DNA of 38,103 bases from Oscillospiraceae bacterium. Its GTDB lineage: Bacteria > Bacillota > Clostridia > Oscillospirales > Oscillospiraceae. Under the pieces are notes generated by a model. The model saw nothing but the letters and a program-made list of their open reading frames with translations. It did no database searches and was not told where the DNA came from. Of this stretch, positions 16,255-30,664 are shown piece after piece. Position 1 is the stretch's first letter; each line of letters starts with the position of its first letter. The stretch lies in assembly GCA_902795195.1 (NCBI GenBank), contig CADBKF010000019.1, positions 1 to 38,103 of the forward strand. Reading direction: 5' to 3'. Made by a program: the position numbers and the translations under genes.

Positions 16255-16440
16255 CTAGACCTTGATTGGCAGTTTGTCAAGGGTATTTTTCACCTTTTCC
16301 AAGGAATCTTTCTTGCCGTAGCGTTGAGATAACAAGCGAAGCAAACCAGACAAATCCAAATCCGAAGGCGATTTTGCCACGGATTTGGACTTGCCTGATT
16401 TTTTACCACTATCCACATCTTTCAATACCGGTTCTTTTAC
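16255..16440 (-). pseudogene. C-terminal remnant of unknown protein
   Basis: Minus-strand frame ending at TAG 16255-16257: a Lys/Ser-rich linker (KKSGKSKSVAKSP), then DLDLSGLLRLLSQRYGKKDS and KVKNTLDKLP. A/T-rich codons, unlike the neighbours. No start of its own; the upstream side runs into the acyltransferase 3' end in another frame. A truncated mobile-element gene is the simplest reading; family not recognised. Confidence 0.3.
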
Positions 16441-17243
16441 GAAGAATGCCCGCCTGCGTTCTTCTGCCTTCTTTCCCGGTATTCATAGTAGGCATAATTG
16501 CCCGGTGCAGAGCTGACGCGACACATAAACCCGTACACCTCGTCCCGCAGCTTTTTCCGGGCCGCACGGGGCGGCAGCGTGGGGTCCGGGTAGAAGGGCT
16601 CTGACAGCGTCACGGTCATGCAGGGCCAGAGCTGTTTGAAGATCCTGCGCTGTCGATAGGTCGTCACGTAGGCCACCACCGGAACGTTTTCCCGGACGGG
16701 ATAGGAGAAGCTGCCGTCTGGAAAGGGTCGAATCCCTGTGTACCAGGGCCAGATGTGCGCCTCGGGATAGATGGCCACGGTGCGCTTCTGCCGGATTCTC
16801 AGATGCAGCGCCTCTGAAAATGGACGGTAGCCATGGACGGTGCCGGGCAGCGGGATTCCGCCGAGAAGCTGCACCAGTCTGCGCAGCACTGGCACCGAAA
16901 CCGCCTCCGGGCCTGTAACGATATGGGCGTGCCGAGGGAAGCTCACCAGGGTGGGGGTATAGGCGTCCATCATCCCCTGAGTGTGGTTGCCATAGAGAAA
17001 ATACCCGGTGCCGCGAAGTCCCCGAAGGGCTTTGCGGTTTTTGATTTTGAGGCCGAAGCCCAGCTTTCCGATCAGCCACACCAGGGGTGTCGCAATCAGC
17101 CGGTAGAGCACGAACTCCAAAATGAGCCAGAAAGGATTGCGGATCGAAAAGGGAAAATCGGCGGGAACTGTTTTGGCCCGGATATTGTTGCCCGCGAAGT
17201 CGTCGTGGACGGCATCCTCGTAGTAAATGATCTTATTTGCCAT
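16437..17243 (-). CDS. PlsC-like lysophospholipid acyltransferase family protein
   Basis: 268 residues. A hydrophobic stretch at 35-62 (membrane anchor) precedes the acyltransferase motif region: GNHTQGMMDA (85-94), a His/Asp pair spaced one residue wider than the canonical HX4D, then a glycine/proline block (LGGIPLPG) and AIYPEAHIWP (the EGTR-equivalent region). Such enzymes esterify glycerophospholipids or glycolipids at the inner membrane. It begins 1 nt after the glycosyltransferase stop and is the last gene of the lipid kinase-GT4-acyltransferase operon driven from 19.3 kb. The substrate is inferred to be a glycolipid or lysolipid. Confidence 0.8.
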   Translation of the reverse strand: MANKIIYYEDAVHDDFAGNNIRAKTVPADFPFSIRNPFWLILEFVLYRLIATPLVWLIGKLGFGLKIKNRKALRGLRGTGYFLYGNHTQGMMDAYTPTLVSFPRHAHIVTGPEAVSVPVLRRLVQLLGGIPLPGTVHGYRPFSEALHLRIRQKRTVAIYPEAHIWPWYTGIRPFPDGSFSYPVRENVPVVAYVTTYRQRRIFKQLWPCMTVTLSEPFYPDPTLPPRAARKKLRDEVYGFMCRVSSAPGNYAYYEYRERRQKNAGGHSS

Positions 17244-17244
17244 G

Positions 17245-18387
17245 TCATCCTTCTTTGTGCTTTGCCGCGTGGGTTTCCAGAATCATCTGCTCCATTCGAT
17301 CCATGCAGGCATCGAAATCAAACTGCTTTGTGTAGCCCAGATAGGCCTTACTGCAGGCTTCCTGTTCCGCCGGGTGCTCCAGCCACCAGTCGATCCGCTC
17401 CGCCAGCGCCTTGCTGTCGTTGCTGTGGAAGAGATTCTGTTCCCCCAACGCAAAAAAACGCGTCGCACTGCGGGGCGAATCGGAGATGACCGGCACCAGG
17501 CCGCAGGAAATCGCCTCCAGGCAGGAAATCGCCTCGATCTCGATCTCGGCAGGATGGACGTAGAGATCCGCGCTGTTGATCGTCTTCACCAGCTCCTCCC
17601 GGGAGAAAAAGTGGAAAATCGGCGGGTTCTTCAGGGCCTTACCGCGTTTCATCAGCTTCTCCTTTAAGGGGCCGTCGCCCGCAAAAACCAGCTGGAGCTC
17701 CTCCGCATGTCGGCTTTGCTTTGCCGCGTCGATGAGTACACGGTGGGACTTTTCCTTGCTCAAACGCCCGATGAACAGGATCACATACTTCCCCTCCAGC
17801 TCCTCCGGGCGGCTGACGGGGATTGGACGGAACTGCCGGTTCACTCCGTTGGAAATCACCCAGGCGTTGGTTTTGCCGCCGTACCGCTCAAACACCTTCC
17901 GAATGAATTCTGTCGGATAGTGCACGGCGTCTACGTAACGGTAGCAGTGTCGGAAGAAAGCCTTGTAGACCAAGCGGTTTACCAGCCGGCTGTCCTTCAT
18001 AAAAATGTGGCTGGTAAAGTTCTCCGCCTGGCAGTGGAAGCCTGCGGTAACTGAGATGCCCCGTTCTCTTGCCAGACGCAGCATCGCGCAGCTCACCGGG
18101 AAGGGCAGCATCAGATGCACGTGATCCACGCCGCTCAGCGCCGCCTCCAGAACCTTGCGGGACGGTCTTGCAATCACAACACCGTTTTTGCGGACGTACC
18201 CGTTTAGCGGGCCGAGGGGCAGCGTGGGTACGATGTAGCAATCCGGCTCTCCGCTGCGTTCCCTGTCCGGGCAGACAATGCGAACGCTGTGACCCTTCGC
18301 CCGCAGAGCGCGGATCAGATTCATAGCCGCGATGGTGGTGCCGTTGTTTTCCCGGCCAAGCACGTCGCATACGATACAAATGGTCAT
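17245..18387 (-). CDS. GT4-family glycosyltransferase
   Basis: 380 residues, GT-B fold. N-terminal domain begins VCDVLGRENNGTTIAAMNLI (donor/acceptor loop); the C-terminal domain has GRLSKEK (207-213), FAGDGP (235-240) and the EX7E retaining-GT motif E283...E291 (EIEAISCLE). It resembles clostridial diacylglycerol or mannosyl glycosyltransferases. Start chosen at ATG 18387 (MTICIV), since upstream in-frame codons to 18444 overlap the kinase gene; the ribosome site there is weak. With a diacylglycerol-kinase-type gene before it and an acyltransferase after it, a glycolipid product is the best inference. Confidence 0.85.
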   Translation of the reverse strand: MTICIVCDVLGRENNGTTIAAMNLIRALRAKGHSVRIVCPDRERSGEPDCYIVPTLPLGPLNGYVRKNGVVIARPSRKVLEAALSGVDHVHLMLPFPVSCAMLRLARERGISVTAGFHCQAENFTSHIFMKDSRLVNRLVYKAFFRHCYRYVDAVHYPTEFIRKVFERYGGKTNAWVISNGVNRQFRPIPVSRPEELEGKYVILFIGRLSKEKSHRVLIDAAKQSRHAEELQLVFAGDGPLKEKLMKRGKALKNPPIFHFFSREELVKTINSADLYVHPAEIEIEAISCLEAISCGLVPVISDSPRSATRFFALGEQNLFHSNDSKALAERIDWWLEHPAEQEACSKAYLGYTKQFDFDACMDRMEQMILETHAAKHKEG

Positions 18388-18421: not shown

Positions 18422-19312
18422 TTATCCCGCTGTCTCCCTCTCAAGATTTTCCCCGGGTTCGGCTGCGGTCACGCTGTAGCTTGTGACCCCGGGAATTGTC
18501 TCTCCGTCGATCTGCAGCGGCGTCGGTCGGTCAAACTCCACAGTGATGTGTTTCCCGGACAGCACCTCCGCCATCTCGGTGTGCTTGATATGCGTGCCTT
18601 TAAAGATTGATGGGAAGACCATCAGGGTTTTCAGCTTTCCGGAGCCATGCATGACCAGCGTAGACACGGTATCGTTCTGCAAGCGATCCTGTTTCGGCGT
18701 TGGGATCATACCGCCGCCGTAGTACCGGCCGTTCATGGTTGGCGCAAGCCAGACTTTTTTGTAATGCTTTTCCACTCCGTCCACTGTCACGACGGCATTG
18801 ACCGGCTTGTAATGGAACAGTAGACCCTTGATGGCAATTGCGGTATAGTTGACAGGCTTTTCCGATGTTCCGCGGAGCCTGTCACCCTCCTCGCAGCAAT
18901 ATCCGTCGATGCCGAATCCCACACCGTTGAGGAACCGATAGTTCTTTCCGTTTACAGTTACAGTGGGAAGCATGTCGAGGTAATGCCGGATCGAAACCAG
19001 CCCAGTCCCAGCAGAAGCTCTGATGTCCTCCAAAAAATCGTTTCCGGTTCCGGTTGCGTAGTAGAGAATATCATTTGGCAGCGTCAGCCCCTGTGTTTCG
19101 TTCACAAATCGGTTCAGCGTACCGTCTCCGCCGCACAAAACGAGCGCATCCTCCGGCATAAGGAACGAAAACAACGCAGCATAATCATGTATGGTCATCA
19201 TGTCAAGATACCGGGCTTCCTCGTCGTCAAATAACAGCGTGAGCTCCTCGGCGCGCTCCTTTCCACGACCGTTTCCTGCCTTTGGATTATAAAGAATGTA
19301 ATATGTCTTCAT
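18422..19312 (-). CDS. diacylglycerol kinase-family lipid kinase (DagK/YegS/BmrU)
   Basis: 296 residues, normal length. N-terminal YNPKAGNGRG (8-17), the ATP-binding GGDGTLN (61-67), ATGTGNDF (about 86-93) and a GVGFGID segment define the soluble lipid-kinase family. These enzymes phosphorylate diacylglycerol or related lipids at the membrane surface, feeding phosphatidate back to lipid synthesis. The ATG at 19312 follows GAGAGG at 8 nt. First gene of the minus-strand operon; the box and -10 at 19339-19372 lie directly upstream. A lysine/serine-poor C-terminus gives no extra domain. Confidence 0.9.
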   Translation of the reverse strand: MKTYYILYNPKAGNGRGKERAEELTLLFDDEEARYLDMMTIHDYAALFSFLMPEDALVLCGGDGTLNRFVNETQGLTLPNDILYYATGTGNDFLEDIRASAGTGLVSIRHYLDMLPTVTVNGKNYRFLNGVGFGIDGYCCEEGDRLRGTSEKPVNYTAIAIKGLLFHYKPVNAVVTVDGVEKHYKKVWLAPTMNGRYYGGGMIPTPKQDRLQNDTVSTLVMHGSGKLKTLMVFPSIFKGTHIKHTEMAEVLSGKHITVEFDRPTPLQIDGETIPGVTSYSVTAAEPGENLERETAG

Positions 19313-19338: not shown

Positions 19339-19372
19339 ATCGTATCAGCCGATTCTAAACTGAAACGAAACT
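19339..19372 (-). promoter_or_regulatory. regulator box A and -10, driving the lipid kinase operon
   Basis: Minus strand GTTTCGTTTCAGTTTAG, 10 nt, then TACGAT (-10, 19339-19344). It is the left arm of a perfect 20-bp inverted repeat (TTCTAAACTGAAACGAAACT, 19353-19372). The box contains GTTTCG-N5-GTTTAG, an 11-bp-period direct repeat, in the place of a -35 element, as at OmpR/PhoB-activated promoters. Confidence 0.8.
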
Positions 19373-19400
19373 GGCTGAAAAACAGGCAAAGGCGCCTCGG

Positions 19401-19434
19401 AGTTTCGTTTCAGTTTAGAAACACGCAGTACCAT
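19401..19434 (+). promoter_or_regulatory. regulator box B and -10, driving the radical SAM operon
   Basis: Plus strand GTTTCGTTTCAGTTTAG (19402-19418), 10 nt, then TACCAT (19429-19434). Right arm of the same inverted repeat (19401-19420), separated from box A by 28 bp, giving a divergent control region. No sigma-A -35 is visible for either direction. Confidence 0.8.
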
Positions 19435-19490
19435 CTCAGTATCAACCAGCAATATGGATTGCTGACTATACAAAAAACGGGAGGATACAC

Positions 19491-20894
19491 ATGATGAAAG
19501 ACAACTTTGTTAACCGCGCTATGGTGCGGCATGCAATCCGTGCTGCAATCAAGGACCCTGACAAAAACATTCCCAAAATCCTCGCTCTGGTCGAGCGGGC
19601 AGATGCCAATGGAAATAACGCTACCGCCTACGCCAATCTCAGAAGGGGATTTGAAGACCCGAAGAACAACTGGAACATCATGGTGCACAATCTGATCCGG
19701 AATGTCGACCCGGATGTTCTGGAGAGTATGATGATGTCATTGGGGTTCCATTCCGCCGTTGCCAGCGCATATGACAGGATGGAGAATATTGAAAAATATA
19801 ACTGCAACATCCCCTGGGCGGTGCTGATGGACCCGACTGCGGCGTGCAATCTGCACTGCACAGGCTGCTGGGCAGCAGAGTACGGCAAAAACACATTCTT
19901 AACCTATGAGACGCTGGATCGCATCATCCGCGAGGGCACGGCGCTCGGCACCTACACCTACATCTTCTCCGGCGGCGAGCCTACCATGCGGAAGAAGGAC
20001 CTGATCCGGCTGGCCGAGGTGCACCCCGACTGCGCTTTTCTTGCCTTCACCAACGGCACCCTTGTGGACGAGGAATTTGCGGACGAACTAAAGCGCGTGG
20101 GTAATTTTGCCCTTGCCTTCTCCATCGAAGGCAGCGAGGAGGATACAGATTTCCGTCGCGGAGCCGGTACTTATCAAGCAGTGATCCGCGCCATGGATAT
20201 TCTGCGAGAAAAGGGAGTTGTTTTTGGCTTCTCCGCCTGCTATACCAGTAAGAATCTGGGTACCATCGGATCGGACGAGTTTGTGGATCTGATGATTGAA
20301 AAGGGCTGTCTGTTCGGGTGGTACTTCACCTATATTCCTGTCGGGAAGGATGCCGTAACTGATTTGATTGCATCCGCCGAACAGCGTGCCTATATGTATC
20401 AGAAGGTTCGTGAGTGGCGCGGCACAAAGCCTTGCTTCCTGCTGGATTTCTGGAACGACGGCGAATATGTGCACGGCTGCATCGCGGGCGGACGCCACTA
20501 CCTTCATATCAACGCCAACGGCGACGTGGAGCCCTGTGCCTTTATCCACTACAGCAACGTGAATATCCATGACTGCAGCCTGTTGGAGGCGCTGCAAAGC
20601 CCACTCTTTATGGAATACCGGAAGAATCAGCCCTTCAACGAAAATATGCTGCGCCCCTGCCCCATGCTGGACAACCCGGAGAAGCTGCGAGAGATGGTGA
20701 AGAACTCTGAGGCTCATTCCACAGACCTCCTTGCGCCGGAAAGCGCGGAAGAGCTCACAGCAAAGACAGAGCAGGCGGCCCAGGCCTGGGCTGTGAAAGC
20801 AGGCGAGCTTTGGGACGCTGTGGACGAAGGGTCCAAAAAATCCCACCGGAATGTAATCTACGGGGGATCGGGCAAAGCATCGGCAGGAGGTTAA
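19491..20894 (+). CDS. radical SAM protein of unknown function in a lipid gene cluster
   Basis: 467 residues. An N-terminal helical region (1-105; includes NWNIMVHNLIRNVDPDVLES, 60-79) precedes the radical SAM core: C119-x3-C123-x2-C126 (CNLHCTGC) for the [4Fe-4S] cluster and GGEP (161-164) for S-adenosylmethionine. The C-terminal part has further cysteines at C330 (HGCIAGG), C349 (DVEPCAFIHYS) and C390 (RPCPMLDNP), suggesting an auxiliary cluster of SPASM type. No precursor-peptide gene is seen nearby. GGGAGG lies 6 nt before the ATG; box B lies upstream. Genes for lipid kinase, glycosyltransferase, acyltransferases and PAP2 share the same regulator boxes, so a lipid substrate is inferred. 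Radical SAM enzymes such as Tes and bacterial MSS join lipid tails, but membership here is untested. Confidence 0.85.
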   Translation: MMKDNFVNRAMVRHAIRAAIKDPDKNIPKILALVERADANGNNATAYANLRRGFEDPKNNWNIMVHNLIRNVDPDVLESMMMSLGFHSAVASAYDRMENIEKYNCNIPWAVLMDPTAACNLHCTGCWAAEYGKNTFLTYETLDRIIREGTALGTYTYIFSGGEPTMRKKDLIRLAEVHPDCAFLAFTNGTLVDEEFADELKRVGNFALAFSIEGSEEDTDFRRGAGTYQAVIRAMDILREKGVVFGFSACYTSKNLGTIGSDEFVDLMIEKGCLFGWYFTYIPVGKDAVTDLIASAEQRAYMYQKVREWRGTKPCFLLDFWNDGEYVHGCIAGGRHYLHINANGDVEPCAFIHYSNVNIHDCSLLEALQSPLFMEYRKNQPFNENMLRPCPMLDNPEKLREMVKNSEAHSTDLLAPESAEELTAKTEQAAQAWAVKAGELWDAVDEGSKKSHRNVIYGGSGKASAGG

Positions 20895-20902
20895 AGCAGC
20901 AA

Positions 20903-21874
20903 ATGAAGCAGCAGACCTTTGCAGCAGTGGCCGGAAGCGCGTTGCTGGTCCCGGTGCTTGTGTCAGCGGGGACGGCGGAGTATCTGACCCGAGCCGCCGT
21001 AGACCGGGAGCCGCCCCGTTCCTTTGCCCGGCGCAGGGAAAAGGCAAAGCCGATGCCCGATCCCGCGCTGGACAGCGCCCGGGAACGCCTTCGGCAGAGT
21101 CCCCATCAAAGGGTGGAGATCAGCGCCTATGACGGAACCCGGCTGACAGGGCACTGGTTCCCACACCCAGACGCAAAAAGGGTAATCGTTGCCATCCACG
21201 GTTGGCGGTCCCATTGGTATCGGGACTTTGGCGCAATCTCAGAATTTTGGAAAGAGCAGGGCTGCAGTGTGCTCTATGTGGAGCAGCGGGCCCATGATAC
21301 CAGCGGAGGGCAGCACATGACCTACGGCGCTGTGGAGCGTTACGACTGCCAGGCCTGGCTGTGTTGGGCCTGTAAACGTTGCGGGCTAAAACTGCCGATT
21401 TATCTTGCAGGCGTCTCCATGGGCGCAACAACGGTCTTGATGGCCGGGGCACTGTCTCTGCCGGGCAATCTGCGTGGAATTATCGCCGACTGCGGTTTTA
21501 CCTCCGCAGATGAGATCTGGTGCCACCTTGCCCGGGACAGCCTGCACATGCCTTATCGGATGGTACGCCGTTTCGCAAACGCGAAGTATCTCCGACGCAC
21601 CGGCCAGACCTCTGGGCTCTCTACTGTGGACGCGCTGAAGAATTGCCAGCTGCCGGTTCTGCTGATCCACGGAGAAGCAGACGATTTCGTCCCTCCGGAG
21701 ATGAGCCGCAGAAACGAAAAGGCCTGTGCCGGGCAGAAGCGGCTTGTGATGGTGCCCGGTGCCGGTCACGGTATGAGCAGCTTTGTAGGGAAGGAGCTCT
21801 ATGAGCAGGAGCTTCTGGCGTTTTGGGCGGCTCATGACGCAGACAGCGGAGAACCGGGGCAACAACCTGTGTAA
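20903..21874 (+). CDS. alpha/beta hydrolase with N-terminal membrane anchor
   Basis: 323 residues. A signal anchor at about 4-25 precedes an alpha/beta-hydrolase domain (about 70-320): oxyanion HGW (99-101), nucleophile elbow G170-V-S172-M-G174, acid in HGEADDF (D260/D261) and H289 in GAGHGMS. This gives a complete Ser-Asp-His triad. The predicted active site would face outside if residues 4-25 cross the membrane. The ATG is 8 nt after the radical SAM stop, with AGGAGG overlapping that stop, so the two are cotranscribed. Its role could be an esterase or lipase acting on the product of the radical SAM step; that is inference. Confidence 0.85.
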   Translation: MKQQTFAAVAGSALLVPVLVSAGTAEYLTRAAVDREPPRSFARRREKAKPMPDPALDSARERLRQSPHQRVEISAYDGTRLTGHWFPHPDAKRVIVAIHGWRSHWYRDFGAISEFWKEQGCSVLYVEQRAHDTSGGQHMTYGAVERYDCQAWLCWACKRCGLKLPIYLAGVSMGATTVLMAGALSLPGNLRGIIADCGFTSADEIWCHLARDSLHMPYRMVRRFANAKYLRRTGQTSGLSTVDALKNCQLPVLLIHGEADDFVPPEMSRRNEKACAGQKRLVMVPGAGHGMSSFVGKELYEQELLAFWAAHDADSGEPGQQPV

Positions 21875-21900
21875 GTTGGAATACCCTGCCGTAATACCAT

Positions 21901-21941
21901 CAATGCCTCAAGACAGCAAAGCATACTGTCTTGAGGCATTG
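21901..21941. terminator. convergent hairpin between hydrolase and histidine kinase genes
   Basis: CAATGCCTCAAGACAG (21901-21916) pairs perfectly with CTGTCTTGAGGCATTG (21926-21941) around a 9-nt loop. It lies between two convergent stops; T tract weak. Likely a bidirectional terminator. Confidence 0.75.
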
Positions 21942-21961
21942 CGATTTCCATGCCGGATGGT

Positions 21962-23044
21962 TTACGGCAAATCCTCCGCGTTCTCCTTCGGCAGCGTCAC
22001 GGTAAACGCGGTTTTCCCGTTGGCACTGGAATAATCTACGCTGCCATGATGCAGCTCGACGATCCGCTGCACGACGGCAAGGCCGATCCCGTTGCCCTGC
22101 GCGGCGTGGGACTCGTCTGCCTGGTAGAATTTCTGGAAGATGCGGTCTCCGGCCTCCGGCGGGATGGCCTGGCCGTAATTCGTAATTGTCACATGTGTGG
22201 CGTCTGGAGCCTCGTTGATTTCAACGCCCAGCTCCGCGCCGAAGTCCGAGAACTTGACGGCGTTGTCCAGCAGATTGATCCAGACCTGCCGCAGCAGCTC
22301 CTCGTTGCCCCGCACATAGACCTCGTCGAAGCGAAGGTCCAGATCCAGCTGCTTTTTGGTCCAGGCCTCCTCCAGCAGCAGAACGCAGGCCCGCAGCTGC
22401 TCGGAGAGGTTGAAGCGGGTCACGTCAGACAGAATCGTCTGGTTTTCCACACGGCTCAGATTCAGCACGTTGGTTGCCATATCGGACAGACGCATGGACT
22501 CCTCCGCGATCACGGCGGTGTATTCCTGTCGCTGGGCCTGGGTCAGATTACCCCTGCGGAGCAGCTTGGCAAAGCCCGCGATGGAAACGATGGGCGTTTT
22601 GAATTCGTGGGAGAAATTGCTGACGAAATCCGAGCGCAGGATCTCCGTCCGCCCCAACTCCTCCGCCATTTTATTGAAGCTGTCGGATATCTCCCGCATG
22701 GTGGGATGTCTGCCCAGGAATTTCCCCAATTGCAGCCGGACGCCGAAGTTTCCGGCTGCCAGCTCATTCATGGCGTTGATAATGTTGTTGATGGGCTTCA
22801 TTGTGATCCTGCTGATGAAAAATGTAATGCCCGCGCCGATGAGCAGACTCAGCAGCCCAAGGCCGATGGTGGCAAGAATCCGGCCCGCGGACCGGGACTC
22901 CAGGCGGGTAATCCAGTCGAATTTGACAGCCGCGTAGACCAAGGCTCCCACCACCAGGATCACCGCCAGCAGAATGAGAAAGGTCACGCCGCCAAACAAA
23001 AGCGTCAGCGCCCTGCGGCTCTTCCGCTGTTCCGATTTTTTCAT
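21962..23044 (-). CDS. sensor histidine kinase (HAMP-HisKA-HATPase)
   Basis: 360 residues. Two membrane segments (about 12-42 and 56-78) are separated by only about 13 residues, so there is almost no outer domain: an intramembrane-sensing layout. HAMP at about 79-131, phosphoacceptor FSHEFKTPI (H146), N box NLLDNAVKF (near 258) and G box GNGIGLAVV. Kinases with such short loops often sense membrane state or need a partner membrane protein. The ATG overlaps the regulator stop by 4 nt. Its cognate regulator is the preceding gene, and the regulon appears to be lipid enzymes, so a membrane-lipid or envelope cue is inferred. Confidence 0.93.
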   Translation of the reverse strand: MKKSEQRKSRRALTLLFGGVTFLILLAVILVVGALVYAAVKFDWITRLESRSAGRILATIGLGLLSLLIGAGITFFISRITMKPINNIINAMNELAAGNFGVRLQLGKFLGRHPTMREISDSFNKMAEELGRTEILRSDFVSNFSHEFKTPIVSIAGFAKLLRRGNLTQAQRQEYTAVIAEESMRLSDMATNVLNLSRVENQTILSDVTRFNLSEQLRACVLLLEEAWTKKQLDLDLRFDEVYVRGNEELLRQVWINLLDNAVKFSDFGAELGVEINEAPDATHVTITNYGQAIPPEAGDRIFQKFYQADESHAAQGNGIGLAVVQRIVELHHGSVDYSSANGKTAFTVTLPKENAEDLP

Positions 23045-23715
23045 AGCTTTTTGACCACCTTATACCCAAGTCCCCGGACGGAGACGATCTCAAATTCCGG
23101 CCAGCACTCAAAGCGCTTCCGCAGCCGCCCGATGTGGACGGTCACGGTCTCCCAGCCCGTCTCGCTTTCGCTGCCCCAGATCTCATCCATCAGCTGGATG
23201 CGGGTAAAAATTTTCCCCGGGAAGGAGAGCAGCTTGTAGAGCAGCAGAAACTCCTTTTGCGGGAGCTGCTGGGTTTCCGTGCCGCGGGTGACGCACTGGC
23301 TGTCGTAGTCCAGTGTCACGTCGCCCACAACGATTTTCCGCTCCGCCGCGATTTTGGCCCGCCGCAGCAGGGCCTTGATCCGCAGCAGCAGCTCGGTCTC
23401 GTCGATGGGCTTGGTCATATAGTCGTCGGTGCCCGCCCGGAAGCCCTCGTGCCGATCCCGGGGAAGCTGCCTGGCGGAGAGCATCAGAACGGGCAGATTG
23501 CTGTTTCCCTCCCGCAGCTCCCGGGTAAAGGCATAGCCGTCCATCTCCGGCATCATCACGTCCAGCACCACAAGGTCCACGTATTCCCGGTCCAGCAGCG
23601 CCAGGGCCTGCTTTCCGTTTTCAGCGGTAGAGACGGTATAGCCCTCCGGCTCCAGCACCGACCGCAGCAGCAGCCGGGTATTCTTATCATCGTCCACCAC
23701 AAGAATGTGAAACAT
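23041..23715 (-). CDS. OmpR/PhoB-family response regulator
   Basis: 224 residues. Receiver domain with the acidic pocket VVDDD (7-11), phosphoacceptor D52 (in VVLDVMMPEMDG), a Ser in MLSARQ and K102-P in DDYMTKPID. C-terminal winged helix (about 128-222) ends in the typical RGLGYKVVKKL. The start is ATG 23715, 8 nt after AGGAGG; the in-frame GTG at 23724 lies inside that site. It probably binds the GTTTCG-N5-GTTTAG boxes, because OmpR-type dimers recognise 11-bp direct repeats and one such box precedes this gene. Two promoters appear to serve it: the box C promoter and a consensus one at 23808-23836. Confidence 0.94.
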   Translation of the reverse strand: MFHILVVDDDKNTRLLLRSVLEPEGYTVSTAENGKQALALLDREYVDLVVLDVMMPEMDGYAFTRELREGNSNLPVLMLSARQLPRDRHEGFRAGTDDYMTKPIDETELLLRIKALLRRAKIAAERKIVVGDVTLDYDSQCVTRGTETQQLPQKEFLLLYKLLSFPGKIFTRIQLMDEIWGSESETGWETVTVHIGRLRKRFECWPEFEIVSVRGLGYKVVKKL

Positions 23716-23737
23716 CCGATTCACCTCCTACCGGCTC

Positions 23738-23770
23738 ATTATGGCATGAAAACCTAAACTGAAACGAAAC
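23738..23770 (-). promoter_or_regulatory. regulator box C and -10, autoregulatory promoter of the two-component operon
   Basis: Minus strand GTTTCGTTTCAGTTTAG, 10 nt, then CATAAT (23738-23743). Transcription from it would start almost at the Shine-Dalgarno site, giving a very short leader. Confidence 0.75.
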
Positions 23771-23807
23771 AAGCACGCAGACCGGCAGGCTTTTCCGGTC
23801 TGTGTCT

Positions 23808-23836
23808 ATTATACGGGAACTCCGGGCGGGGGTCAA
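23808..23836 (-). promoter_or_regulatory. consensus promoter of the two-component operon
   Basis: Minus strand TTGACC (23831-23836), 17-bp spacer, TATAAT (23808-23813). It sits between boxes C and D and likely gives basal expression. Its transcript carries box C and a CAGACCGG/CCGGTCTG hairpin (around 23779-23802) in its leader. Confidence 0.8.
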
Positions 23837-23859
23837 TCCCGCTTTTCCGCTTTCCCTCA

Positions 23860-23892
23860 GTTTCGTTTCAGTTTAGGTTTCTCGTGTATATT
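23860..23892 (+). promoter_or_regulatory. regulator box D and -10, driving the YjdF-like/acyltransferase/PAP2 operon
   Basis: Plus strand GTTTCGTTTCAGTTTAG (23860-23876), 10 nt, then TATATT (23887-23892). Forms a perfect 20-bp inverted repeat with box C (AACCTAAACTGAAACGAAAC, 23751-23770) across 89 bp. Confidence 0.8.
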
Positions 23893-23927: not shown

Positions 23928-24782
23928 ATGAAAAAGCCTCGAGCGACAGAACAGTCCCTGCAATGGCAGTGGCAGAATAACCGGCCAGCTTTCCTCACCT
24001 GGGCGGTGCTGCGTCTGCTGGTGCTGCTGGTGCTGATTCGTTCCGCCATAAACGGTCTGTGGGAGAACGTATTCATCTGTTTGCTGGTGCTGGCGCTTTT
24101 TCTCCTCCCATCCCTGATCTCCAGACGGCTGAAAATCACCTTTCCCACCGGGCTGCAGATCGTGATCCTGATCCACATTTTTGCCTGTGAGATCCTGGGC
24201 GAACTGGAAAGCTATTACGTGCGCTATCCCCATTGGGATACCGTCACCCATACGGTCTGGGGCTTCCTGTGCGCAGCCATCGGCTATGGCTTGGTGGACA
24301 TTCTGAACCGGGAGAGCTCCGCCCATTTCCATCTTTCTCCGGCGTTTCTGGCTCTGGCTGCCTTCTGCTTTTCCATGACCGTCGGCGTGCTGTGGGAATT
24401 CTTTGAGTTCGCGGCGGACCGGCTGCTCCTGCTGGATATGCAGAAGGACACGGTGATCTCGCAGTTCTCCAGCGTGATGCTGGACCCGACCAACAGCAAC
24501 ATTCCGATCCGGGTCGCGGATATCACAGACGTGGCTGTGAACGGTGAGAGTCTGGGTCTGGGCGGCTATCTGGACGTAGGCCTCTATGATACCATGGAGG
24601 ATCTGTTTGTGAACATGATCGGTGGGCTGGTGTTTGCGGTCATTGGCTTTTTCCGTTCCCGCAGCCAGCAGGCGGAAAGAATCGCGGTCTCCTTCATCCC
24701 TCGGCCCGGGAAACAGCCAAACCGCGGCGAAGCAAATCAAGGCGAAGCAAAACTAAGCGTAGCAAATCAAGCGGAACTCTGA
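23928..24782 (+). CDS. multi-pass membrane protein, DUF2238/YjdF-like
   Basis: 284 residues with about six hydrophobic segments (roughly 22-42, 45-62, 72-92, 105-125, 137-160, 224-244). Between them are HWDTVTHTVWGF (102-113) and GVLWEFFEFAADR (about 152-164), the paired charged motifs I associate with YjdF/DUF2238 inner-membrane proteins; function of that family is unknown. The C-terminus is a soluble tail with a near-repeat (GEANQGEAK...SVANQ). AGGA lies 7 nt before the ATG. First gene under box D, cotranscribed with an acyltransferase and a PAP2-type protein, so involvement in lipid handling, or partnership with the short-loop kinase, is possible. Confidence 0.7.
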   Translation: MKKPRATEQSLQWQWQNNRPAFLTWAVLRLLVLLVLIRSAINGLWENVFICLLVLALFLLPSLISRRLKITFPTGLQIVILIHIFACEILGELESYYVRYPHWDTVTHTVWGFLCAAIGYGLVDILNRESSAHFHLSPAFLALAAFCFSMTVGVLWEFFEFAADRLLLLDMQKDTVISQFSSVMLDPTNSNIPIRVADITDVAVNGESLGLGGYLDVGLYDTMEDLFVNMIGGLVFAVIGFFRSRSQQAERIAVSFIPRPGKQPNRGEANQGEAKLSVANQAEL

Positions 24783-24799: not shown

Positions 24800-25576
24800 A
24801 TGGAAGAGAAACGGACAAGTCGGCTCTATCGGGGAATCCGTTGGGGCGTCAAGCTGGTTTTCCCAAAATTCCGGCTGGTAGAGGCAGAGCAGCTGCCGGA
24901 GACTCCCTGCGTCATCGTGGGAAACCACAGCCAGACCTACGGCCCTGTGGCGGGTGAGCTCTACATCCCCGGGAAGCACGAAATCTGGTGCGCTGGGGAA
25001 ATGATGGACCGGAAGGAGGTGGCGGACTACGCCTACCGGGATTTCTGGTCCGGCAAGCCCTGGTGGAACCGCTGGTTTTATTGGCTGCTGAGCCGGTGCA
25101 TCGGGCCTCTGGCGGAGCTGGTCTTTACCAACGCCCACACCATCCCCGTCTACCATGATACACGGATCGTCTCCACCTTCCGACAATCCATCGAAAAGCT
25201 GCAGCAGGGCAGCAGCATCGTGATCTTCCCGGAGCATTATCAGGAGCACAACAACATCGTCCATGAATTTCAAGAGAACTTCGTGGACCTGGCCCGCTTC
25301 TACTATACGAAAACGGGAGAGATTTTGTCCTTTGTCCCCCTCTACCTGGCGCCGCGGCTGAAAACCATGTATTTCGGTGCGCCGATTGCCTTTGATCCAA
25401 AAGCCCCCATTGCCCGGGAGCGGAAGCGGATCTGCAGCGCGCTGATGGACGCTATCACCGCAATGGCCGTCTCCCTGCCGGAGCACGTTGTGGTGCCCTA
25501 TCCCAACGTCCCGAAGAAACAATATCCAAAGAACATTCCCCTGGAGGTCCGAGTCCATGAAGAGACAGCCCGTTGA
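24800..25576 (+). CDS. lysophospholipid acyltransferase family protein
   Basis: 258 residues, second PlsC-type enzyme of the island. VGNHSQTYGPVAGEL (40-54) is the catalytic-His region, without a canonical HX4D aspartate; IVIFPEHYQEHNN (about 140-152) is the acyl-acceptor region and FVPLYL matches motif IV. These features place it in a clostridial branch of the family with relaxed motif I. GGGAGG precedes the ATG; it starts 17 nt after the YjdF-like gene and overlaps the PAP2 gene by 20 nt, so the operon is tight. Likely acylates a lysolipid or glycolipid at the membrane. Confidence 0.82.
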   Translation: MEEKRTSRLYRGIRWGVKLVFPKFRLVEAEQLPETPCVIVGNHSQTYGPVAGELYIPGKHEIWCAGEMMDRKEVADYAYRDFWSGKPWWNRWFYWLLSRCIGPLAELVFTNAHTIPVYHDTRIVSTFRQSIEKLQQGSSIVIFPEHYQEHNNIVHEFQENFVDLARFYYTKTGEILSFVPLYLAPRLKTMYFGAPIAFDPKAPIARERKRICSALMDAITAMAVSLPEHVVVPYPNVPKKQYPKNIPLEVRVHEETAR

Positions 25577-26252
25577 TTACAGCGGTTTTTCTCTGCGGCG
25601 TCTGAAGGAGCCGCGCTTTTCTCATATCCGGCTGCTGGGCGGCTGGCTCGTCTATTTCGCCCTGTATTTTTTGACAGAGAATCTGATCCCGGCGGAGCGC
25701 TGCCACGTGATTCACTGCCGTCTGGACGATATGATTCCGTTCCGTGAGGGCTTTGTGGTTTTCTATGTGGGCTGGTATCTATTTGTCGCGGGTGCAGTGG
25801 CTTATACCCTCTTCTACGATGTGGATCGCTTCAAACACCTGCAGACCTACATCATCGTAACGCAGATCGCGGCTATGCTCTGCTATATTTTCTATCCCAG
25901 TATCCAAACCGTACGCCCGGCGGAGTTCCCGCGGCAAAACGTGTTCACCTGGGTGCTGGGTATCATCTATGCCTTTGACACCCCCACCGGCGTCTGTCCA
26001 TCCCTGCACGTTGCCTACTCTATTGCCATCGTCTCGGTGACGCTGAAGGAGAAAGCCCTCAACGGGTGGGTCAAGGCAGCGGCAGCGGGCTTTGCTCTGA
26101 TGGTGTGCCTGGCGGTCTGCTTCGTCAAGCAGCACTCCGTCCTGGACGTCCTTGCGGCCCTGCCGGTCTGCCTGCTGGGTGAAATCCTCGTCTATGGGAA
26201 GGACTACTGGATGCCAAAGCTGCGCCGGGCTGCTTCCCGAGGAAATCCATAA
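25557..26252 (+). CDS. PAP2-superfamily membrane phosphatase/transferase
   Basis: 231 residues with about six membrane segments. The second and third PAP2 motifs are visible: PSLHVAYS (148-155, H151) and KQHSVLDV with H193-x3-D197. Motif 1 (KX6RP) is degenerate, keeping only R120-P121, a pattern shared with PAP2-like inositolphosphotransferases. It could dephosphorylate phosphatidate-type lipids or transfer a headgroup. The ATG lies within the 3' end of the acyltransferase gene, with GGAGG 9 nt upstream. A lipid kinase in the same regulon performs the opposite chemistry, so together they could set a lipid-phosphate balance. Confidence 0.82.
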   Translation: MKRQPVDYSGFSLRRLKEPRFSHIRLLGGWLVYFALYFLTENLIPAERCHVIHCRLDDMIPFREGFVVFYVGWYLFVAGAVAYTLFYDVDRFKHLQTYIIVTQIAAMLCYIFYPSIQTVRPAEFPRQNVFTWVLGIIYAFDTPTGVCPSLHVAYSIAIVSVTLKEKALNGWVKAAAAGFALMVCLAVCFVKQHSVLDVLAALPVCLLGEILVYGKDYWMPKLRRAASRGNP

Positions 26253-26338: not shown

Positions 26339-27241
26339 ATGTCTGAACAATTTATTCTGTCCTGTGAGTCTACGGTGGACCTGCCCTACGCCTATGTGAA
26401 CGGGCGGGGCCTGCCGGTGCTGTTCTATTCGTACCTTGCAGAGGAGAAGCTGCATGTGGACGATATGCTGCGAGATCCCGCAGCCCTGCCGCACTTTTAC
26501 GCCATGCTGGAGGGCGGCGCGCTGCCCTCGACCTCCCAACTGACAACCTACGACTATGAAGCCTTCTTTTCCCCACTGCTGGAGCAGGGGAATCTGCTGC
26601 ACATCGCCTTCGGCACCGGAATGACAGGCTCTTATTATCATGCGGAGGAGGCTGCCGAAAAGCTCCGCAAGAAGTACCCCGAACGCACGATTCGGGTGAT
26701 CGATTCCTTGTGCAGCTCCTCCGGGTATGGACTCCTGGTGGACTACGCTGCCGATCTGCGGGATGCCGGCAGGACGCTGGAGGAAACCGCCCAGTGGGTC
26801 GAGGCCAACCGCAAGCTGGTGCATCATCAGTTCTTCTCTACCGAACTGAAATTCTACCGGCGCAGCGGAAGAATGTCCGGTGCCGCTGCTGCCGTGGCGA
26901 CCATTCTGAATATCTGTCCCATCATGCGACTCGACGACGGCGGCCGGATCATCGCCTATGATAAGGTGCGCGGGAAGCGGAAGGCCATGGATCGCACGGT
27001 TCAGACGGTACTGCGTCATATTCAGAACGGGTCCGACTACGACGGCAAATGCTATATCAGCCACTCCAACTGCCTGCCGGAGGCAGAGCAGCTGCGTTCC
27101 CTGCTGCAGCAGGCATTGCCCCGGGTTCCGGAGATTCCCATCTGGGACATCGGTACCATCATTGCGTCTCACTGCGGTCCGGGAACCGTCGCGGTATTTT
27201 TCCTGGGAGACGAGCGGGTCCCCGATGGCAAAGCCGTTTAA
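26339..27241 (+). CDS. DegV family fatty-acid-binding protein
   Basis: 300 residues, typical length. N-terminal CESTVDLP (9-16, the SxxDL-type loop), PSTSQLT (63-69), a FGTGMTGSY loop (about 91-99) and a C-terminal GPGTVAVFFLGDE are DegV hallmarks. DegV/FakB proteins bind a fatty acid and present it to the kinase FakA, making acyl-phosphate for PlsX/PlsY. No FakA gene is in the window. AGGAGG lies 6 nt before the ATG. It follows the PAP2 gene at 86 bp in the same direction and probably extends that operon, supplying acyl chains to the lipid enzymes (inference). Confidence 0.9.
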   Translation: MSEQFILSCESTVDLPYAYVNGRGLPVLFYSYLAEEKLHVDDMLRDPAALPHFYAMLEGGALPSTSQLTTYDYEAFFSPLLEQGNLLHIAFGTGMTGSYYHAEEAAEKLRKKYPERTIRVIDSLCSSSGYGLLVDYAADLRDAGRTLEETAQWVEANRKLVHHQFFSTELKFYRRSGRMSGAAAAVATILNICPIMRLDDGGRIIAYDKVRGKRKAMDRTVQTVLRHIQNGSDYDGKCYISHSNCLPEAEQLRSLLQQALPRVPEIPIWDIGTIIASHCGPGTVAVFFLGDERVPDGKAV

Positions 27242-28554: not shown

Positions 28555-29283
28555 CTATTCATTCGTTTCGGCTGTGCCAGCAAGGCAGAAGCTGCAGTTC
28601 ACCGACGGCTGGCCGGTCTTCCGGATAGAATATCGGTTTTCGCCGCAGCTGTAGATTTGCAGTCGGTCGCCCTCGAAGGTTTGATTGACGTACTGCACTT
28701 CCACAGCGACTACCGGCATCCTTGCCAGTTGCTCTACAGAATACTGATTGACCAAATAGCGAATGTAAGAAATGTTGTTGGTATGGTGACAGAAATCGAT
28801 ATCCGCGCTGCGGACCGTCAACTCCTCCAGCAATTGCTGCGGCTCGAAGCGTTCCCGGCGAAAGACGAGGTCGATTTCCGCTTTCTCTGGGGGTGTGTTC
28901 TCGCCCAAACCGACTGTGCCGCTCCTTCGAATCTTCCCGGTCTCCAAATCCACCGCGCAGAGCTCCAGGCGGGAGGCAACCGCGATCTCGCCGCCGGATT
29001 TCAGCACCGTGTCAATGACAAGCTTTACCCCGGTGAAGGAGCTGATATAGCACTCCGCGGTGTAGGCATCCATCCAGAGCAGGGGCTTGCGCAGCTCCAC
29101 CCGGTTGCGGACAAAGACCCACATGGCTCCGTATTTCCGCATACAGGTAACGCCGTCGATGTGAAGCGCGCCCATCATCTCGGTCACCATGTCCTCCACA
29201 AGCTGGAAAGCTCCGACTACAGAGAGCCGTACCGACGCGTCACACAGGCTGGCAGGCAGCTTTTCCTGTTTGATCAGCTTCAT
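28555..29283 (-). CDS. acyl-ACP thioesterase-like double hot-dog protein
   Basis: 242 residues, two tandem hot-dog halves. The first half has GAFQLVEDMVTEMMG; the second has RSADIDFCHHTNNISYIRYL (about 158-177), which corresponds to the catalytic SDIDxNxHVNN...Y segment of bacterial FatA-like thioesterases. These enzymes release free fatty acid from acyl-ACP. The start is ATG 29283, overlapping the upstream gene stop by 4 nt; in-frame sequence beyond it belongs to that gene. With DegV across the terminator and several acyltransferases nearby, it fits fatty-acid supply or chain-length editing in the same island. Confidence 0.85.
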   Translation of the reverse strand: MKLIKQEKLPASLCDASVRLSVVGAFQLVEDMVTEMMGALHIDGVTCMRKYGAMWVFVRNRVELRKPLLWMDAYTAECYISSFTGVKLVIDTVLKSGGEIAVASRLELCAVDLETGKIRRSGTVGLGENTPPEKAEIDLVFRRERFEPQQLLEELTVRSADIDFCHHTNNISYIRYLVNQYSVEQLARMPVVAVEVQYVNQTFEGDRLQIYSCGENRYSIRKTGQPSVNCSFCLAGTAETNE

Positions 29284-29540
29284 TCGTGCGTCAAACAGGC
29301 GGCGGGGCAATGGGAGCCCTTCGGCGGGACGGGCAGCGGTTCGCCCTTGATATACGCTTCAATCACGCGGTGATGTACACCGAGGAAATACCCGGTGCCA
29401 AGCAGGCAGACCCCGCTCACGCAGGCAAGAACCGTCCGCCGGATTGCTCGCTTTACCTTCTTTCTCTCCGCCTTCTTCTCTTGCTCAATCTCGTGCTCAA
29501 GCTTCTGTTCGAGCTTTTCTTCGATGAATTCCTTGCCCAT
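29280..29540 (-). CDS. small membrane protein with charged helical N-terminus
   Basis: 86 residues. Residues 1-35 are a highly charged, probably coiled-coil helix (alternating E/K: EKLEQKLEHEIEQEKKAERK); one membrane segment at about 36-53 (LACVSGVCLLGTGYFLGV) and a short Pro-rich tail follow. No family recognised. AGGAGG lies 7 nt before the ATG and a strong promoter is at 29577-29605. Translationally coupled to the thioesterase by a 4-nt overlap, so it may tether or regulate that enzyme at the membrane (inference). Confidence 0.7.
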   Translation of the reverse strand: MGKEFIEEKLEQKLEHEIEQEKKAERKKVKRAIRRTVLACVSGVCLLGTGYFLGVHHRVIEAYIKGEPLPVPPKGSHCPAACLTHE

Positions 29541-29683: not shown

Positions 29684-30664
29684 TCAAAGGAGGGAATTCT
29701 TCTCCGCCTCGCAGGTCCGATTTGCCATGCGCTGGGCCAGCGGTCTGGATTCCAGGCGGGCTTTTTCCGCCTCGATCTCCGCCATCAGTGCCTTCGTTTC
29801 CTCGTCAGCAGTCTCCTCACGGTAGAGCGCTTGAATCAGCCTGTCCTGTCTTGCAATAATGCCGCTCTGGATCATCACAGTAGGCTCCGCGGCAGACAGC
29901 GCCCGTCTGGCGCCGGACTCGATGCGCTGCTCGGCCTCCCTGCGGATGCGCTCGGACTCCGCCTTCAACGCAGCCAGGCGCTGCTTGACCCGGTCCGTGC
30001 GGTAGATCACCTCAGGATAGGCATCGGCAAAGCGTCGATAGAAGTAGGAGCGGTTGGTGAGAAGGCGGCGGACCTCCGTGCTGATCTCCTCGGTGCTGTC
30101 CGCCTGGCTGCTTTCCACACCCCGCTTGACCAGCCGCAGCACGAAGTGGGTCATAACGTAGTCGGCGGCAAAAACGGCCACCAGCGCAGCCGCAAGGATT
30201 TCCTTCGTCGGTGTCGACAGCAGCGCGAACAGCCGCTCGATCAAGGGGTTGAGCAGATGCAAAATCGCCACTCCACCCAGGCCGAAAAGGATCAGATTCC
30301 CGATCCAGACTCGCCCGTGCAGATTCATGGGCTTCCGGCTGTAATCCCACCAGCGGGCGTGGAAGCGCTTTTCCATCACATAACTCGTCAGATACTCCAC
30401 TGTACCGCAGAGCAGGAAGGACAGCAGAAAGCTGGTCCCATAGGAGGCTGCTGCCCGGGGAAAAGCCAGACCCGCAAGGGTAATCAGCAGCGCGCCGCTT
30501 CCGTAGATTGGGCAGATGGGGCCGGTAAAGAAGCCTCGGTTAATGAACCGGTGGAACTGTATGTATTTCAGCGTCACCTCAATCAGCCAACCTGCCAGGG
30601 AATACAGGAAAAACAACAGCACAAGCTGGCTCATAGTTGCCATAGTATTCTCTTGGATGATCAC
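29684..30664 (-). CDS. CmpB-like membrane protein (putative ABC-transporter type IV family)
   Basis: 326 residues. The N-terminal half (1-185) has about five membrane segments with the family hallmarks GWLIEV (25-30), NRGFFTGPICPIYG (42-55), and RWWDYSRKPMNLHGRV (about 105-120). The C-terminal 140 residues are charged and coiled-coil-like (AALKAESERIRREAEQRIES). Despite its family name, no transport activity is established for such proteins. GTG at 30664 with GAGGAG 6 nt upstream is the best start; ATG at 30643 is the alternative. Promoter at 30763-30791. Probably the last gene of the island before the transposon. Confidence 0.75.
   Translation of the reverse strand: MIIQENTMATMSQLVLLFFLYSLAGWLIEVTLKYIQFHRFINRGFFTGPICPIYGSGALLITLAGLAFPRAAASYGTSFLLSFLLCGTVEYLTSYVMEKRFHARWWDYSRKPMNLHGRVWIGNLILFGLGGVAILHLLNPLIERLFALLSTPTKEILAAALVAVFAADYVMTHFVLRLVKRGVESSQADSTEEISTEVRRLLTNRSYFYRRFADAYPEVIYRTDRVKQRLAALKAESERIRREAEQRIESGARRALSAAEPTVMIQSGIIARQDRLIQALYREETADEETKALMAEIEAEKARLESRPLAQRMANRTCEAEKNSLL

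Follow-up and report, generated by a model that had tools for sequence, protein, structure and literature searches.

A 17-bp box at fixed promoter spacing accompanies a putative membrane-lipid regulator of the OmpR/PhoB type in Clostridia

What reads four identical 17-bp boxes that stand ahead of four operons in a clostridial genome? The boxes lie in a stretch of 38,103 nucleotides (nt) from an Oscillospiraceae bacterium (assembly GCA_902795195.1, contig CADBKF010000019.1, positions 1 to 38,103), hereafter called the window, in which a response regulator and a histidine kinase are also encoded. We consider it highly probable that the boxes are operators of this regulator (23041-23715), which would activate its own operon and three others after a signal from the kinase. 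A first-pass annotation, made from the letters of the window, had proposed such a regulon. It was right in substance, and comparison across genomes, which provides the support, indicates that the finding is larger than it had stated. The features concerned are the following.

19355-19371, minus strand: box A, facing the lipid kinase operon; -10 hexamer TACGAT at 19344-19339 (minus), 10 nt on
19402-19418, plus strand: box B, facing the radical SAM operon; -10 hexamer TACCAT at 19429-19434 (plus), 10 nt on
23754-23770, minus strand: box C, facing the regulator's own gene; -10 hexamer CATAAT at 23743-23738 (minus), 10 nt on
23860-23876, plus strand: box D, facing the membrane protein/acyltransferase/PAP2 operon; -10 hexamer TATATT at 23887-23892 (plus), 10 nt on
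23041-23715, minus strand: response regulator P0001, OmpR/PhoB-family (Pfam Response_reg 1.1e-31, Trans_reg_C 1.9e-16)
21962-23044, minus strand: histidine kinase P0002 (Pfam HAMP, HisKA, HATPase; by hydropathy, two predicted membrane helices joined by a very short outside loop)

An exact match search found the 17-mer four times in the window, arranged as two divergent pairs, as the first-pass annotation had reported with pair coordinates that were off by 2-3 nt. Reading of the sequence also bore out its description of every copy as an 11-bp direct repeat (GTTTCG-N5-GTTTAG) followed by 10 nt and a -10-like hexamer. When up to 3 mismatches were allowed, no window site was found beyond these four (mean 0.08 and maximum 1 in 100 dinucleotide shuffles). 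The genome-wide motif search that the annotation had recommended covered 2,389,338 bases in 94 contigs (92.8% complete); no copy within 2 mismatches appeared beyond the four, and the reversed pattern gave one match. A much looser pattern gave 11 sites, four of them boxes A-D, versus 17 with the reversed control, so that no extra regulon member can be claimed in this genome. Another genome of the genus (G020) matches this one in ten genes, at 97-100% identity, and in all four boxes, box A included.

The spacing between box and hexamer is conserved in other genomes. In 35 loci fetched by the regulator protein, with our own genome and G020 excluded and no spacing demanded, we found 33 distinct box-like sites, distributed over 24 of the loci, versus a single site with the reversed pattern. 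The hexamer TANNNT stands at offset 10 in 26 of these 33 sites; no other offset between 0 and 26 has it in more than 2 sites. Across all fetched loci, own copies included, there are 162 distinct sites with up to 2 mismatches, many of which were gathered with the spacing already demanded; 138 have the hexamer at offset 10, the next most frequent offset being 12 (12 sites). The consensus of 145 sites with a -10 reads GTTTCGTTTCA-GTTTAGAWTTC, that is, two 11-bp units with an extension that is weak at its end. It also displays a weak TG ahead of a -10 of housekeeping type, and no good TTGACA-like -35. If the end of the -10 is taken as -7, the box spans about -39 to -23. In PhoB-type activators, 11-bp direct repeats stand in for -35 recognition about 10 nt before the -10, and the position of the box together with the lack of a good -35 matches this geometry.

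The presence of the box also follows that of the regulator. The pattern box-N10-TANNNT, with up to 2 mismatches, was searched in 400 genomes of the family, and the regulator in 400 family genomes taken as the same set, a close orthologue being defined by at least 71% identity. The box occurs in 25 of these genomes (44 sites) and the regulator in 26 at E <=1e-90, 22 of which carry a close orthologue. Twenty of these 22 have the box, versus 5 of the 378 others (Fisher 4e-27), and none of the four genomes with an orthologue of 63-67% identity has it. In a class-wide sample of 351 genomes, which overlaps the family sample by our own genome and at least two others, the box was found in 7 of 12 genomes with the regulator versus 0 of 339 without it (Fisher 6e-12; 2e-10 excluding our own genome), all 15 class-wide box sites being located in regulator-bearing genomes.

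The regulators themselves point in the same direction. In a tree of 54 rows, our protein and 31 of its 35 orthologues are set apart from the remaining rows by a branch with support 100/98, these 32 rows having been grouped by identity. The recognition helix of this clade is ETVTVHIGRLRKRF or a close variant, all 32 rows being of the ETVTVHIGRLR type or near it. The helices of the four orthologues at 63-67% identity read NVHINRLR or NVHITRLR, and those of 18 more distant regulators are mostly TVDVHINRLR or TVDVHIGRLR. Of the 35 orthologues, near-identical genomes included, 24 have a box-like site in the 250 bp ahead of the gene, versus 6 of 35 with the reversed pattern, and 1 of 35 and 4 of 35 inside the gene. 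Among these 24 sites, 22 are found at 51-74 bp from the start, and 20 of the 35 orthologues also show a hexamer A....T at the right distance. As such sites are widespread among orthologues, auto-control of the regulator looks old. The copies at regulator promoters are often more divergent than those at other genes, a comparison that is unfair because the latter were mostly gathered with a stricter pattern. Two distant regulators with other helices, at L102:9747 (G089, 58% identity) and in L087 (G101, 54%), carry, at their own promoters, repeats of the GTTTA type followed by a +10 hexamer, which perhaps indicates that related pairs of box and regulator form a family.

How far does the system extend? 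When about 85,000 species genomes were scanned for exact matches, 96 stretches were obtained, of which 80 (L170-L249) were analyzed. Among their titles, 79 refer to Bacillota, to a clostridial or related group, or to a genus taken as clostridial (two genera were checked), and that of L231 only says "bacterium". In 53 of the 80 loci, the regulator (at least 60% identity, 49 loci) and/or the kinase (at least 42%, 50 loci) is encoded within the same stretch of up to 8 kb. Four of these 53 have the kinase only, and L219 has a regulator fragment only (residues 1-69, same contig as L157). L179 shares a contig with L242, which carries the regulator-kinase pair. For the remaining 26 loci, from 25 genomes, the regulator was found elsewhere in 21 genomes (22 loci) at 69-80% identity, one copy having an internal stop codon. 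Altogether, the regulator or the kinase turned up in the genomes of 76 of the 80 loci. The system is thus wider than could be seen from the window: orthologues exist in several clostridial families, the regulator being present in 22 of 400 family genomes and 12 of 351 class-wide genomes, and the genes behind the boxes vary by locus.

Which genes do the boxes serve? In the window, the box positions agree with the four operons of the first-pass annotation, in which the label "YjdF-like" finds backing in a sub-threshold DUF2238 match only, the PAP2 match is also sub-threshold and the DegV gene had not been included. Besides the regulator and the kinase, the genes concerned are listed below.

18422-19312, minus strand: lipid kinase P0005, diacylglycerol-kinase-family (Pfam DAGK_cat, YegS_C)
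17245-18387, minus strand: GT4-type glycosyltransferase P0006, perhaps lipid-directed (Pfam Glycos_transf_1)
16437-17243, minus strand: acyltransferase a, P0007 (Pfam Acyltransferase 6.7e-05, at cut-off)
19491-20894, plus strand: radical SAM/SPASM protein P0003 (Pfam Radical_SAM 2.6e-22, SPASM 9.4e-06)
20903-21874, plus strand: alpha/beta hydrolase P0004 (Pfam Hydrolase_4 9.6e-15)
23928-24782, plus strand: hydrophobic protein P0008, weakly DUF2238-like (Pfam DUF2238 E 0.015, sub-threshold)
24800-25576, plus strand: acyltransferase b, P0009 (Pfam Acyltransferase 7.7e-05, at cut-off; TIGR00530 2.7e-05, under cut-off)
25557-26252, plus strand: PAP2-like protein P0010 (Pfam PAP2 E 0.013, sub-threshold)
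26339-27241, plus strand: DegV-family (FakB-like) protein (Pfam DegV 1.7e-49)

The gap of 86 nt ahead of the DegV gene is without a terminator-like site on the plus strand, and this gene (26339-27241) is probably the last member of the rightward operon behind box D. Several of these genes have counterparts behind boxes in other genomes: a radical SAM gene 85% identical to P0003 stands directly behind a 1-mismatch box in G369 (L168), homologues of the hydrolase P0004 are found behind boxes in L169, L182, L200 and L202, and homologues of acyltransferase b and/or the PAP2-like protein face boxes elsewhere, as at box D. The NCBIfam matches of the glycosyltransferase P0006, to IagA/BgsA and to GlcN-PG synthase, are under their cut-offs. 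Relatives of P0003 occur widely in the family, in 89 of 200 genomes at E <=1e-30 with weak ones included, at most 12 of them in genomes with a close regulator orthologue. A role of P0003 as a membrane-spanning-lipid synthase, similar to the Mss/Tes enzymes (PMC13274423), was unsupported, with only weak matches, to other radical SAM enzymes.

In the 80 analyzed loci, a mechanical chain finder led from 97 boxes to 86 first genes and 69 further second genes. A Pfam scan at E <=1e-5 covered all 86 first genes and 60 of the 69 second genes, nine short or doubtful open reading frames being dropped, and the 25 commonest families were reported. Near-duplicate loci inflate the raw counts. Among the matches listed, the first genes comprise 13 Response_reg, 12 DegV (the commonest non-regulator family), 10 ABC ATPases, 5 FakA/DAK2, 5 acyltransferases, 4 FtsX, 4 HlyD, 3 FtsH (M41), 3 CmpB, 3 patatin, 3 RelA/SpoT and 2 YegS_C. 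The second genes, again among the matches listed, comprise 10 kinases, 8 ABC, 6 FakA, 3 GT8, 2 PlsX (FA_synthesis), 2 DnaJ, 2 acyltransferases, 2 PAP2, 1 PlsY and 1 cytidylyltransferase. Counted by similarity to representatives, with loci collapsed at 80% identity in brackets, DegV is found at 15 (12) loci, FakA at 12 (9), acyltransferase b at 7 (7), PlsY at 4 (4) and FtsH at 4 (1). The recurrent targets are thus membrane-lipid genes (FakA/DegV, PlsX/PlsY, acyltransferases, PAP2, diacylglycerol kinase), FtsH and ABC exporters. These functions, namely fatty-acid activation, phosphatidate synthesis, diacylglycerol recycling, glycosyl transfer, membrane proteolysis and export, suggest that the regulon serves membrane repair or homeostasis. 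Altogether, four proposals drawn from the window hold in other genomes: the link between box and regulator, the auto-control of the latter, the activator-like position of the box in place of a -35, and the lipid genes as targets.

On the other hand, a number of observations weigh against the regulator as reader of the boxes, or against the generality of the lipid regulon. The reversed control matches 2 of the 400 family genomes, one match each, and class-wide it matches 14 of 351 genomes, once each, more than the 7 of 351 of the real pattern. Searched with 2 mismatches and no -10 required, the 17-mer alone is found in 17 of 59 relatives, our own genome included, versus 28 of 59 for its reversed control (the reversed counts of 28/59 and 14/351 are our own tally). 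The combination of box and spacing was used for this reason, and specificity resides in the exact or near-exact box combined with a -10 at the fixed distance, rather than in the 17-mer as such. The Fisher values ignore shared ancestry. Two family genomes with a close orthologue (G091 and G299) and 5 of the 12 class-level genomes with the regulator show no box at up to 2 mismatches; in each of the seven, the regulator promoter carries a more divergent site, with 3-6 mismatches (3 in G091, 6 in G299), the weakest being near chance. Conversely, 5 of 378 family genomes have a box and no close orthologue. Among them, a contig end truncates the regulator in G369, the contig ends about 150 nt past the box in G422, the genome of G186 is 67% complete, the two-mismatch site of G201 may be due to chance, and the fifth is G411. 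Weak box-like sites also lie upstream of 6 of the 18 distant regulators versus 1 of 18 with the reversed pattern, and no regulator was found in the genomes of four box loci (L200, L205, L213 and L218). Concerning the targets, a recognized lipid gene (DegV, FakA, PlsX, PlsY, acyltransferase b, PAP2, diacylglycerol kinase, PgsA or patatin) is among the first three genes at 34 of the 80 loci, 37 with the hydrolase, which is not a majority; this count is a lower bound because the gene picker was sometimes in the wrong frame and locus ends cut the chains. Some targets, such as a RelA/SpoT-domain protein, DnaJ and exporters, are not lipid enzymes. Finally, we infer activation, as opposed to repression, from the position of the box only, and binding by the regulator and a membrane-derived signal are inferred as well.

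Two of these genomes show unusual arrangements. In G411 (L157:9369-9642), residues 1-69 only of the regulator are encoded behind an exact box and are followed by an acyltransferase-like gene, perhaps a decaying circuit. G422 (L156:3698-3751) has two tandem boxes with a 21-nt step near the contig end, the first one with 2 mismatches.

If the regulator does read the boxes, the following sequence of events can be proposed. The kinase (21962-23044) would probably sense a disturbance of the membrane itself and phosphorylate the regulator, two molecules of which would bind the 11-bp direct repeat at about -39 to -23, where a good -35 is lacking. The bound regulator would then recruit the housekeeping polymerase to the -10 located 10 nt downstream. 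Its own operon would be switched on in this way, as well as the diacylglycerol kinase-glycosyltransferase-acyltransferase operon, the radical SAM-hydrolase operon and the membrane protein-acyltransferase-PAP2 operon, probably with DegV. Elsewhere in the Clostridia, this pair of regulator and box would act ahead of genes for fatty-acid kinase, PlsX/PlsY, acyltransferases, FtsH and exporters. A second, constitutive promoter would lie upstream of box C.

23836-23808, minus strand: near-consensus housekeeping promoter TTGACC-17-TATAAT (11 of 12 positions in a consensus scan), upstream of box C and reading towards the regulator

This site (23808-23836) is possibly the basal promoter of the regulator, whose basal expression would be combined with auto-amplification. 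Box C would lie inside the transcript of this promoter, so that binding of the regulator there might alter its output.

Could the same regulator bind the box as a repressor and block the polymerase at about -39 to -23? The overlap of the box with the core promoter would fit such a role. However, the lack of a good -35 and the fixed 10-nt phase to the -10 correspond to the activation geometry of PhoB-type proteins, and a repressor would be expected to tolerate variable spacing, so that we regard repression as unlikely. One would also wonder whether another protein, such as an alternative sigma factor or a different regulator, reads the box, the two-component system being merely one of its targets. 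The resemblance of the boxes to a -35/-10 promoter, and the presence of one ahead of the regulator gene itself, would fit this explanation. However, box and spacing are found mainly where the regulator is encoded too, box presence follows the clade and helix of the regulator, and the -10 is of housekeeping type; we judge a different reader very improbable, although no systematic search for another regulator of like distribution was made. Four identical copies arranged as two inverted pairs within 5 kb, with a terminator-like hairpin on the minus strand (19397-19384) between boxes A and B, could also bring to mind a structural or mobile element, such as a hairpin, a bidirectional terminator or a recent local duplication. 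Yet the box is often single elsewhere, beside other genes, with the conserved +10 hexamer and varied flanks, and no terminator-like stem found in the scan contains a box. We give almost no credence to such an origin, and operators of the regulator encoded at 23041-23715 are the reading that we retain.

What would the kinase perceive? The N-terminal hydrophobic segments of P0002 cover residues 10-46 and 52-82, with almost no loop between them according to hydropathy. By the same analysis, the two segments are separated by a short gap in 30 of 39 orthologues and merge into one stretch in 9. On hydropathy only, P0002 thus has the two N-terminal helices and very short outside loop by which intramembrane-sensing kinases are recognized. 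Given this near absence of an outside domain, a signal arising within or at the membrane is the simplest guess.

A parallel can be drawn with several known systems. The regulator possesses the receiver and winged-helix Trans_reg_C domains that the OmpR/PhoB family requires, and the DNA holds tandem half-sites 11 bp apart, as a member of this family would bind. Like PhoB/OmpR and the pho box, the present system would thus combine these two domains with 11-bp direct repeats replacing the -35, about 10 nt to the -10 and auto-control; it differs by its half-site (GTTTCG/GTTTAG) and its targets. The regulator falls below the NCBIfam PhoB equivalog cut-off (181.1 versus 296.2 bits) and below that of each of the 25 named regulators among the matches listed (98 matched). 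LiaSR-type systems have a kinase with two helices and little outside domain, and both LiaSR and DesKR have membrane or envelope defence outputs, but their regulators are of the NarL/LuxR type with palindromic boxes and DesK has more membrane helices. P0002 and its probable membrane/envelope output are therefore reminiscent of LiaSR, whereas the regulator differs from those of LiaSR and DesKR by its OmpR type and its direct repeat. The nearest functional parallels that we found are HexRK-hexSDF of Clostridioides difficile and YrkPQ of Bacillus subtilis, which are presented in PMC10128005 as Bacillota two-component systems with small lipid or membrane regulons, hexS being a predicted monogalactosyldiacylglycerol synthase. 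Compared by this description, HexK has an outside domain of about 120 residues (PMC10128005), the large sensor that the kinase studied here almost entirely lacks. A word search for "direct repeat" and "autoregulat" gave no match in the accessible text of the HexRK paper (PMC10128005).

In the literature searched, mostly without subscription papers, the box and its near variants appeared in one unrelated paper only, and no paper among those listed for two-component control of Fak/PlsX, phospholipids or membrane stress in Clostridia seems, from its title and abstract start, to deal with this system. The type of system, an OmpR/PhoB-type activator with an 11-bp repeat, is therefore known, and this regulator, its box and its regulon were not found described in that literature. 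To our knowledge, little is known about the control of membrane lipid supply in gut and rumen Clostridia. A tentative hypothesis, which we hold to be quite possible though short of probable, is that the system ensures membrane homeostasis in Clostridia. The kinase would read the bilayer directly, and a single promoter module would match acyl-phosphate and phosphatidate supply (FakA/DegV, PlsX, PlsY, acyltransferases, diacylglycerol kinase), lipid turnover, FtsH proteolysis and export to membrane stress, its targets being rewired in different genera. Through the regulator, the 17-bp box at fixed spacing and the targets predicted in many genomes, the control of lipid supply becomes directly testable and the regulon predictable from sequence. 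Orphan genes such as those of P0003 (radical SAM), P0004 (hydrolase) and P0008 (DUF2238-like) also gain a functional context in this way. Just past the regulon lie, both on the minus strand, a CmpB-type membrane protein gene (29684-30664), which has no box although CmpB-type genes are box targets elsewhere, and a gene (28555-29310) resembling those of acyl-ACP (acyl carrier protein) thioesterases.

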